Source of the DNA: Acidobacteriota bacterium
GTDB lineage: Bacteria > Acidobacteriota > Terriglobia > Terriglobales > Acidobacteriaceae
Direction: 5' to 3'
Assembly (NCBI GenBank): GCA_021800255.1
Contig: JAJYZC010000004.1
Span: forward strand, 1-64,000
Length of the DNA stretch: 64,000 bases
Positions 23,691 to 50,926 of this stretch are shown here, piece after piece. The notes beneath the pieces are model-generated. The model did no database searches. It was not told where the DNA came from and was given only the letters and a program-made list of their open reading frames with translations. Each line of letters begins with the position of its first letter. Within the stretch, counting starts at the first letter, position 1. The translations under genes were made by a program, and so were the position numbers.

Positions 23691-23808
23691 CGGCCTTTTC
23701 GGAAATAGTGCAAGTCCTGTTGAGATTGATTTTCATGCCGCCATTCCTTGAAGTAGCGGCGACTCGAGAATGTGCTTTCGGTCTACAGAACTTCTGAAAA
23801 TGCGATAG
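23691..23808 (+). repeat. Dispersed repeat family 1, copy A
   Basis: About 118 bp with ends CCTTTTCGGAAATAG and TTCTGAAAATGCGATAG. The interior shares GAGATTGATTTTCATG, CTTGAAGT-GCGGC and CTTTCGGTCTACAGAA with copies C and D. Same orientation as copy D. It lies in the gap before the homocysteine methyltransferase gene. Confidence 0.8.
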
Positions 23809-23902: not shown

Positions 23903-24880
23903 ATGGCCAAGAATGCCGAGCCTGCGGATTCCGTTCTGAGCGGGGTACATGTGCTCGACGGCGGACTGGCGTCTGAACTCGAATACCAGGGCGTGCGCAT
24001 CGACGGCCCTCTTTGGTCAGCGCACGCACTCGAGGACGCCCCGGAAAAAGTGGCCGCCGTGCATCGCGCCTGGATCGAAGCCGGCGCGCAGTGTATCGCC
24101 ACGTGCAGCTACCAGGTTTCGCGCATGGGTTATGCGGAGTTCGGCCTGCCGCCGGAGCGCGCCGATGCGGCCCTGCTGCGGTCGGTCGAGCTGGCCCGCA
24201 CGGTGGCCGCGGAGTTTCCCGGCCGCCGCGTGCTGGTGGCCGCCTCGCTCGGCCCTTATGGCGCCGCGCTTCACAATGGCGGCGAATATACGGGCGACTA
24301 CAATTGTTCCTTTGAAGATCTGGTGGCCTTTCACCGCGAGCGGATTGCGGTGCTGGCCGGGGCGCGCGGCGAACAGGCGCCCGATCTCCACCCCACCGGG
24401 CAAAGATCGCCCGGCGGGGGCCCCGATCTGCTGGCCTTTGAAACCTTCCCTTCGCTCGAAGAGGTCCGCGCCGTGGGTCAGGCTCTGGCTCCGTGGCCCG
24501 GCCTGCGCGCCTGGTTCAGCTTTTCCTGCCGGGATGAGAAGCACGTCTCGCACGGGGAGCCGGTCGCCGACTGCGCGGCGTTTCTGGAGCGGCTGCCCCA
24601 GACCGTGGCCATCGGCGTGAATTGCGTGCCGCCGAAGTGGATTTCTTCGCTCATCGCTGAACTGCGCGCCGCCTCCAGCAAGCCGGTCATCGTCTATCCC
24701 AACTCCGGCGAAGGATGGGACGCGGAGCATCGCTGCTGGACGGGAACTACTGATGCGGCGGAGTTTGGGGCAATGGCAGAAAAATGGTTTCGCGCCGGAG
24801 CGCAGATCGTGGGTGGCTGCTGCCGGACCCGGCCCGCGCATATTCGCCAGGTAGCGCAGGCGGCGACGGAAAACGGTTAA
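23903..24880 (+). CDS. mmuM: Homocysteine S-methyltransferase
   Basis: A 325-residue zinc-dependent enzyme transferring a methyl group (typically from S-methylmethionine) to homocysteine to give methionine. Visible motifs are LDGGLASELE at the N-terminus, ASLGPYGAALHNGGEYTGDY, DLLAFETFPS, GVNCVPP (zinc Cys) and GGCCRTRP (zinc Cys pair), so all three zinc ligands are present. Residues about 160-173 are an extra in-frame segment encoded by a 42-bp palindromic insertion flanked by CCCGATCT repeats. It lies in a loop just before DLLAFETFPS. The stop overlaps the 3' end of the convergent TPR gene by 4 bases. Activity despite the insert is likely but unproven. Confidence 0.9.
   Translation: MAKNAEPADSVLSGVHVLDGGLASELEYQGVRIDGPLWSAHALEDAPEKVAAVHRAWIEAGAQCIATCSYQVSRMGYAEFGLPPERADAALLRSVELARTVAAEFPGRRVLVAASLGPYGAALHNGGEYTGDYNCSFEDLVAFHRERIAVLAGARGEQAPDLHPTGQRSPGGGPDLLAFETFPSLEEVRAVGQALAPWPGLRAWFSFSCRDEKHVSHGEPVADCAAFLERLPQTVAIGVNCVPPKWISSLIAELRAASSKPVIVYPNSGEGWDAEHRCWTGTTDAAEFGAMAEKWFRAGAQIVGGCCRTRPAHIRQVAQAATENG
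24380..24429. repeat. Palindromic element inserted in frame in mmuM
   Basis: A hairpin (24391-24401 pairs with 24409-24419, 10 of 11 positions, loop AAAGATC) lies between two copies of CCCGATCT (24380-24387 and 24422-24429). The repeat-to-repeat distance is 42 bp, a multiple of three, so the reading frame is kept and 14 residues are added. The duplicated 8-mer looks like a target-site duplication. Confidence 0.75.
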
Positions 24881-36498: not shown

Positions 36499-36617
36499 CT
36501 ACGGCATTTTCGGAAATACTGGGAACGATTGAGTGCCGAGAAAGTGGATTTTTCTTGAGGAAAAATCCACTCAGCAGGAGTGGTTTCTGTCTACACCTTT
36601 TCCGAAAATGCTATATC
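36499..36617 (+). repeat. Dispersed repeat family 1, copy B (divergent interior)
   Basis: Ends match family 1 (CTACGGCATTTTCGGAAATA and TTCCGAAAATGCTATA), but the interior differs. It holds a perfect 12-bp stem (AGTGGATTTTTC at 36543-36554 with its complement at 36560-36571). The shared ends around different interiors suggest that the termini are the functional part. Confidence 0.7.
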
Positions 36618-36625
36618 CCCGGGAC

Positions 36626-42982: not shown

Positions 42983-43894
42983 ATGGACAGTGTGATGGAG
43001 CTGGTGCAGATTGAGCCGGCGCGGCGGGCGCCCAAGCCCAAGCCGGAGTGGCTGCGGGTACGCGCGCCGGTGGGCGAGAACTTCCACGATCTGAAGAGGC
43101 TGGCGCGTTCCTTGGGGCTGCACACGGTGTGCGAAAGCGCGCAGTGCCCGAACATCGGCGAGTGTTGGCATCACAGGACGGCGACCTTCATGATGCTGGG
43201 CAACCTGTGCACGCGGCGCTGCGGATTCTGCGCCGTGCCCAAGGGCCGGCCGGAGGCCATCGACTTTGAAGAGCCGCGGCGCGTGGCCGAAGCCGTGGCC
43301 GTGCTGGGCTTGCAACACGCCGTGATCACCAGCGTGAACCGTGACGACGATCTGGTGGGTGGGGCGCGGGCCTTCGCTATGGTAATCGTGGAGATTCGCC
43401 GCCAGGCGCCGGACTGCCGCGTAGAAGTGCTGATTCCGGACTTCCAGGGCAATCAAGAGGCGATCCGGACCGTCGTGGATGCGCAGCCTGAAATCCTGAA
43501 CCACAACATGGAGACCGTGCCGCGGCTTTACCGCGTGGCGCGCTCCGGCGCGCGGTATGAGCGCTCGCTGGAGCTGTTGCGCTACTCCAAAGAGCTGCGG
43601 CCCGCGGGGCTGACCAAGTCGGGCGTGATGGTGGGCCTGGGCGAGGAGACGCGCGAGCTGCTCGCAGTCTTCCGCGATCTGGCGGCCGTGGGCTGCGACA
43701 TTCTGACCATCGGCCAGTATCTGCGGCCCTCGCGCGACCACCTGCCCATGGCGAGGCTCTACACGCCGCACGAGTTTGCGGAGCTGAAGACCGAGGCGCT
43801 GAAGATGGGCTTCCGCTACGTGGAGTCCGGCCCGCTGGTGCGGTCGAGTTATCATGCGCACGAACAGGCTATAGCATTTTCAGAAATACTGTAG
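42983..43894 (+). CDS. lipA: Lipoyl synthase (radical SAM)
   Basis: A 303-residue enzyme inserting two sulfurs into octanoyl chains on lipoate-dependent proteins. The auxiliary cluster is CESAQCPNIGEC and the radical-SAM cluster is CTRRCGFC. Also seen are VNRDDDLVGGARAF, FQGNQEA and NHNMETVPRLY. The C-terminal SSYHAHEQ fits the family, but the last residues (AIAFSEIL) and the stop codon come from dispersed repeat copy C, whose left end starts at 43870. The native tail appears to have been replaced. A lipoate-ligase-like gene lies at the far end of the window, unlinked. Confidence 0.95.
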   Translation: MDSVMELVQIEPARRAPKPKPEWLRVRAPVGENFHDLKRLARSLGLHTVCESAQCPNIGECWHHRTATFMMLGNLCTRRCGFCAVPKGRPEAIDFEEPRRVAEAVAVLGLQHAVITSVNRDDDLVGGARAFAMVIVEIRRQAPDCRVEVLIPDFQGNQEAIRTVVDAQPEILNHNMETVPRLYRVARSGARYERSLELLRYSKELRPAGLTKSGVMVGLGEETRELLAVFRDLAAVGCDILTIGQYLRPSRDHLPMARLYTPHEFAELKTEALKMGFRYVESGPLVRSSYHAHEQAIAFSEIL

Positions 43895-43989
43895 GCCGAA
43901 GGCACAAGCTCAAGCCGCCGCGACTTCAAGAAACGGCGACATGAAAATCAATCTCGACAAGACTGCGCCACTTCCGAAAATGCCGTAAG
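43870..43989 (-). repeat. Dispersed repeat family 1, copy C
   Basis: About 120 bp in opposite orientation to copies A and D. Its reverse complement begins TTACGGCATTTTCGGAA, passes TTGTCGAGATTGATTTTCAT and CCTTCGGCCTACAG, and ends TCTGAAAATGCTATAG. It overlaps the 3' end of lipA by 25 bp. Confidence 0.85.
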
Positions 43990-50802: not shown

Positions 50803-50926
50803 GTTACGGCATTTTCGGAAAAATGGTGTAGCCCTGTCGAGATTGATTTTCATGTCGCTGCTTCTTGAAGCCACCGCGGCTTGAACGCGCGCCTTCGGTC
50901 TACAGAATTTCCGAAAATGTTATAGC
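50803..50926 (+). repeat. Dispersed repeat family 1, copy D
   Basis: About 124 bp from GTTACGGCATTTTCGGAA to TTTCCGAAAATGTTATAGC. It shares CTGTCGAGATTGATTTTCAT, CTTCTTGAAG and CTTCGGTCTACAGAA with copies A and C. It lies between the portal and protease-like genes. Confidence 0.85.

Follow-up and report, generated by a model that had tools for sequence, protein, structure and literature searches.

Rickettsia, Wolbachia and Methanocaldococcus all harbour palindromic elements that lie in frame within coding sequences (PMC2229807, PMC2996958). The RPE of Rickettsia are palindromic and dispersed, lie in frame in conserved household genes, are translated, and are tolerated in non-structured regions, all of which also describes the family of 42-nt insertions presented here, whose in-frame insertion sites are likewise empty in relatives. 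The two differ in size, with RPE-1 type elements spanning 105-146 bp and the present ones 38 nt plus 4 (42 nt per insertion). Their hosts are unrelated, the one studied here belonging to a free-living soil lineage, and the likeness is one of behaviour. Moreover, the target duplication of RPE is listed as unknown, whereas in the 42-nt family a 4-bp repeat can be measured, along with a preference for CCG targets.

A second class consists of intragenic REPs tagged by GTAG or CGTC, which occur in several bacteria, including in uvrA and other repair genes (PMC3733652). These are hairpins of 20-40 nt, often in dimers or clusters, and the 42-nt family resembles them in being a short hairpin repeated many times per genome and present inside genes, uvrA among them. 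Unlike them, it has no GTAG or CGTC tag, forms head-to-tail tandems, usually with a 42-nt period, instead of inverted dimers, has a freely covarying stem, and shows a 4-bp repeat. REP insertions inside RAYT genes (RAYT, REP-associated Y1/HUH transposase) have been described for subclass 2.4 (PMC6006769), and PMC3733652 mentions RAYT-type transposases of Acidobacteria that have other repeats at their flanks. Lastly, bacterial MITEs such as RUP, Correia/NEMIS and ERIC (PMC2229807) are also non-autonomous and show short direct repeats at insertion; however, they measure about 100-200 bp, end in inverted repeats and frequently have TA motifs at the termini, and in this the 42-nt family differs.

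The mmuM insertion

The window, i.e., the whole stretch of DNA analysed, comprises 64,000 nucleotides from the draft genome of a member of the Acidobacteriaceae. It contains an mmuM-type homocysteine S-methyltransferase gene with an intact open reading frame, whose product matches NCBIfam PRK09485 with 341 bits (cut-off 215) and has E. coli MmuM (5dml) as its nearest solved structure, with E = 5e-27. The features of the locus are presented in Table 1.

Table 1. Features of the mmuM locus, in window coordinates.
Feature	Position	Strand	Basis and remarks
mmuM-type homocysteine S-methyltransferase gene with insert	23903..24880	+	325 aa + stop; ORF list, NCBIfam PRK09485, structure 5dml
42-nt insertion, +14 residues	24380..24421	+	absent in 14 relatives; 24388-24429 equivalent owing to flanking repeat
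Left CCCGATCT	24380..24387	+	final ATCT = putative duplicated target; CCCG fits the family's target preference
Hairpin element proper, CCACCCC...GGGGGCCCCG, 38 nt	24388..24425	+	end-to-end R1 match, 33.8 bits, E 4e-5
Stem, left arm	24391..24401	+	sequence
Stem, right arm (one mismatch against left arm)	24409..24419	+	sequence
Right CCCGATCT	24422..24429	+	sequence; relatives have a single CCCGATCT

The original prediction described a palindrome inserted in frame in this gene, and its reading of the locus proved accurate. The hairpin (24391-24419) has eleven stem positions with one mismatch and lies between two copies of CCCGATCT whose starts are 42 nt apart; the sequence between the repeats reads CCACCCC ACCGGGC AAAGATC GCCCGGC GGGG GC. 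The fourteen added residues preserve the frame, and alignment shows the conserved Cys 241, 306 and 307 of the product to be intact. The expectation that relatives would carry an uninterrupted gene was also borne out: each of the 14 compared is exactly 14 residues shorter and has CCCGATCT, or a near variant, once. Given this single repeat and the exact difference in length, the 42-nt unit is, as far as sequence comparison goes, a true insertion; given that no relative examined in the genome collections or among same-genus genomes shares it, it would have entered in the host's own lineage. The opposite course, in which the relatives lost an ancestral 14-residue segment, has a practically negligible probability, as the segment is absent in all 14 relatives and in distant homologues such as E. 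coli MmuM, and the perfect repeat that encloses a family hairpin is not what such a loss would leave behind.

The hairpin alone is unremarkable. The window holds 26 overlapping hits of equal stringency, corresponding to fewer distinct hairpins, whereas random windows matched for dinucleotide composition have 4-11, and the single-strand folding z-score of the mmuM hairpin is only -1.28, an ordinary folding energy. Hairpin strength, being at chance level in this GC-rich window, was thus rejected as evidence. What carries the case beyond chance, in the sequences compared, is the 14-residue gap in the relatives and the recurrence of the element across the genome.

The AlphaFold2 model of MmuM with the insert has a mean pLDDT of 89, and region 157-170, which corresponds to the insert, is its only low-confidence internal stretch, located between helix 137-154 and strand 176-182. 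The model suggests that the protein probably still folds, with the insert in the connection from a helix to the following barrel strand, and it would presumably remain active.

The window also contains three copies of a roughly 100-nt repeat (23713-23808, 43868-43973 and 50821-50926), two direct and one inverted, which are 76-84% alike. One of them is directly upstream of mmuM, and shorter related stretches are found at 36580-36618.

A dispersed hairpin family

A second genomic copy of the stem had been expected. In its literal form this expectation failed, since it is in their stems that family members vary, and a search of the genome for the exact mmuM stem finds only itself; at the level of the family it held, with many further copies in the genome. 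A covariance model (R1) was built from 16 other copies, with the mmuM copy held out. In the host genome, R1 yielded in all at least 33 hits at E < 1e-3, the mmuM copy included, and at least 48 at E <= 1. A pattern search that kept the ends and the loop and left the stem free produced 20 host-genome hits, many of them in tandem with a 42-nt step, and 0 control hits.

These results bear directly on the reading of the mmuM unit as a local accident, in which slippage or template switching produced an 8-bp duplication and a hairpin that belong to no family. The uniqueness of the exact stem in the genome and the fact that hairpins this strong arise by chance speak in its favour. Nevertheless, R1, built without the mmuM copy, recovers that copy end to end at E = 4e-5, and the same 42-nt unit, with identical ends and clean empty sites, is present in at least five other genes. 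The family search refutes the local accident, which we regard as highly improbable. Judged from these sequence matches, the mmuM unit is instead one copy of a dispersed hairpin family.

Regarding its distribution, R1 found hits in 27 of 27 same-genus genomes and none in other families of the class in a first survey, while of 150 genomes sampled across the order at least 77, covering at least 19 of 42 genera, had hits at E <= 1e-4. Because 150 candidates or fewer were scored per genome in the R1 survey, its copy numbers are lower bounds. Tandem arrays usually have a 42-nt period. A 43-nt step was observed in one array, at positions 1607-1901 of locus L135 (genome G020).

No known structured RNA family was recognised: against the curated covariance models of Rfam, five copy-bearing loci yielded nothing at E <= 1. 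Searches of the open-access literature turned up no description of the 42-nt family, nor of protein-coding palindromes in Acidobacteriota. The family is a new one within an already known, rarely seen class of translated mobile DNA.

Anatomy and stem covariation

The family consensus is CCACCCC-(6)-GAAGACCT-(6)-GGGGACCCCG(G). Its ends (CCACCCC and GGGGACCCCGG) and its loop are conserved and the outer four stem pairs are invariant; variation is confined to the inner stem, where changes on one side are compensated on the other. In the covariation test, 96.3% of the cells are paired and 6 of 10 pairs changed on both sides, a result equalled by 0 of 500 shuffles; the same covariation emerged again from a set of 43 distinct sequences, most of which belong to relatives. 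Given the compensatory variation, what is conserved in the stem is its paired state and not its sequence. Both selection for structure and hairpin-templated correction could produce this pattern. The GTAG (GT[AG]G) and CGTC tetranucleotides are absent from the foot of the hairpin, where the conserved feet are CCA-CCCC and GGGG-ACCCCG.

Insertion footprint and target

Among 53 non-redundant isolated copies, 19 are flanked by a 4-bp direct repeat with at least three of four positions matching, compared with 3.8 expected by permutation. In terms of individual matches, 101 were counted against 59 expected, a value reached in 0 of 20000 permutations, and no shift other than 42 gives the signal. More than half of the copies have a poor 4-bp repeat or none, for which age or another mode of insertion would account. 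Upstream, CCG is preferred at positions -8 to -6 (p = 1.4e-4, 2.5e-7 and 2e-3), together with T at -1. On these repeat statistics, a fixed 8-bp target duplication of CCCGATCT was rejected in favour of a 4-bp duplication (ATCT) combined with the CCG preference.

The right end of the element (...CCCCG or CCCCGG) resembles the CCG preference, so that insertion would recreate a target beside itself. This may help to build tandem arrays, although slippage alone is also sufficient.

Some copies lie in the loops of other hairpin repeats (L197, L214, L223, L224, L128, L129 and L232). At window positions 36543-36571 there is a hairpin, AGTGGATTTTTCTTGAGGAAAAATCCACT, and a kindred repeat in a relative (L129) holds a family element in its loop. 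Compared with the element-free hairpin of the window, the L129 insertion looks like 37 nt with no duplication. Single-stranded hairpin loops may be preferred targets.

Insertions in other genes

In the host genome, in-frame units were found in uvrA (one), nadB (three), cysN (three, one of them decayed), trpD (three), and a glutamyl-Q tRNA(Asp) synthetase-like gene (one), all gene names other than mmuM being assigned from recognisable sequence motifs and not by family search. Comparison with 5-14 relatives per gene revealed empty sites for all of them: the relatives are 14 aa shorter in mmuM and uvrA, 42 aa shorter in nadB and cysN, shorter by about three times 14 aa in trpD, and 14 or 15 aa shorter in gluQ. 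In one relative, a single unit is located near the same trpD position (L182). By this sequence evidence, at least five household genes besides mmuM hold in-frame copies, each adding 14 aa. Further copies lie in a molybdopterin oxidoreductase gene, in the gene of an IS256-like transposase, and in a gene with no assigned function whose relatives hold other variable inserts.

Codon usage placed 32 copies inside genes, and 26 of these fall in two of the six frames, a count in which tandem units are not independent. This bias would fit the removal of insertions that encode less tolerable peptides. Openness of all six frames as a special adaptation was also considered and rejected: 83 of 97 cores are open in all six, but so are 35-44% of shuffles.

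Candidate mobilising enzymes

The likeliest mobilising step, to which we assign a little under an even chance, is that the element is REP-like and moved in trans by a RAYT through a single-stranded hairpin. Y1 genes exist in 13 of 13 genomes tested, and sibling hairpin families that share one plan (5' CCCACCC or CCC, a variable paired stem, and a GGGGCACCCG tail) flank RAYT genes, often in inverted orientation; it is this flanking that makes RAYT action in trans the leading hypothesis. The sibling CCCACCCTTTCC..GGAAAGGATGGGG flanks RAYT genes at L251 (on both sides), L239, L255 and L298. The sibling CCCGTTCATCGC..GCGATGAGCGGG lies close upstream of RAYT genes at L238 (G000:C2, in the host genome), L240, L241 and L249, and is also found downstream, in inverted orientation, in L238 and L249. 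A third, CCCAGGTCTC..GAGACCTGGG, occurs at RAYT locus L305. Hairpin density in the first 24 Y1 loci is 0.19/kb, compared with 0.018/kb in control loci drawn from a different genome mix.

As in RAYT-flanking REP systems, then, repeats surround the Y1 genes, and members of the 42-nt family itself interrupt RAYT genes, keeping the frame, at a single codon junction and in both orientations. These inserts (L240, L245 in G017, and L246 in G004) lie between YIHRNP and VKRGLV, with opposite orientations in the two genomes; on this sequence evidence there were at least two independent insertions at that junction. On the other hand, the family differs from RAYT-flanking REPs in that R1 copies flank 0 of 54 Y1 loci (13 genomes), being either inside the gene, at three loci, or distant. 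The missing GTAG or CGTC tag at the foot also tells against the RAYT route, and the main point against it is the 4-bp repeat. Y1 chemistry of the IS200/IS605 type would not be expected to give a 4-bp duplication of varied sequence.

The sibling family at L251, L239, L255 and L298, sought with the pattern CACCCN{16,34}GGRTGGGGCACCC, has at least 60 exact hits in some same-genus genomes, none in the host genome and 0 control hits. Its inner stem is fully variable yet paired, with all six inner pairs complementary in 26 of 34 distinct sequences.

The significant 4-bp direct repeats of varied sequence, as well as the CC...GG tips, speak for another reading, in which the element is a minimal MITE and an insertion-sequence transposase of the DDE type, one producing 4-bp duplications, moves it. 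We consider this unlikely: 38 bp containing a hairpin offers very little room for a pair of DDE transposase binding sites, the ends (CCACCCC and CCGGGGTCCCC) are not simple inverted repeats, a freely varying and compensated inner stem is unexpected for a sequence-specific end, and no full-length insertion sequence with these ends was present among the loci read.

The original prediction likened the mmuM insert to the mobile palindromes of Rickettsia. As a class defined by behaviour this comparison stands, but the nearest molecular relatives found here are the REP-like hairpins around RAYT genes and not the RPE.

Proposed mechanism

Very probably, the feature represents one copy of a mobile hairpin element, about 38 nt long and non-autonomous, that inserts with a 4-bp duplication, can multiply in tandem, and would be recognised partly by its fold. 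The element would consist of 5'-CCACCCC, a variable stem, a GAAGACCT-type loop, the complementary stem, and GGGG(A/G)CCCCG(G)-3'. Its copies have spread within the genome, with movement presumably by copying, each entering at a CCG-N-NNNN site where the last four N are duplicated, which would add 42 nt, a multiple of three. After insertion the element can multiply in tandem, usually with a 42-nt period. Because the stem drifts freely while staying paired, recognition is likely structure-based, and the mobilising factor would appear to read the conserved ends, the loop and the folded hairpin; among candidate enzymes, a RAYT-type Y1 transposase that acts in trans comes first. Within genes, copies would survive at places where the 14 extra residues become part of a protein loop. 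As to active movement, no strain pair differing by one copy was observed.

A more specific version, which we hold to be doubtful, is that the tips, the loop and the fold suffice for recognition, leaving the stem free to evolve by compensatory change, that insertion makes the 4-bp duplication next to CCG, and that the CCCCGG right end recreates a target and seeds the in-frame 42-nt tandem arrays. If this were true, the element would follow neither standard Y1 chemistry, which makes no duplication, nor standard DDE chemistry, which requires fixed ends, and a different mobilising chemistry would be at work.

Significance

Rickettsia and Wolbachia are the main known sources of protein-coding palindromes, to which intragenic REPs add a handful of genomes. 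The 42-nt family is spread through a soil lineage that is abundant, and it combines clear empty sites with a short direct repeat, a preferred target, covarying stems, and siblings beside candidate transposase genes. Many natural filled and empty pairs (uvrA, nadB, cysN, trpD and mmuM) are thereby at hand, on which both the mobilising enzyme and the consequences of 14-residue insertions for enzymes could be tested.
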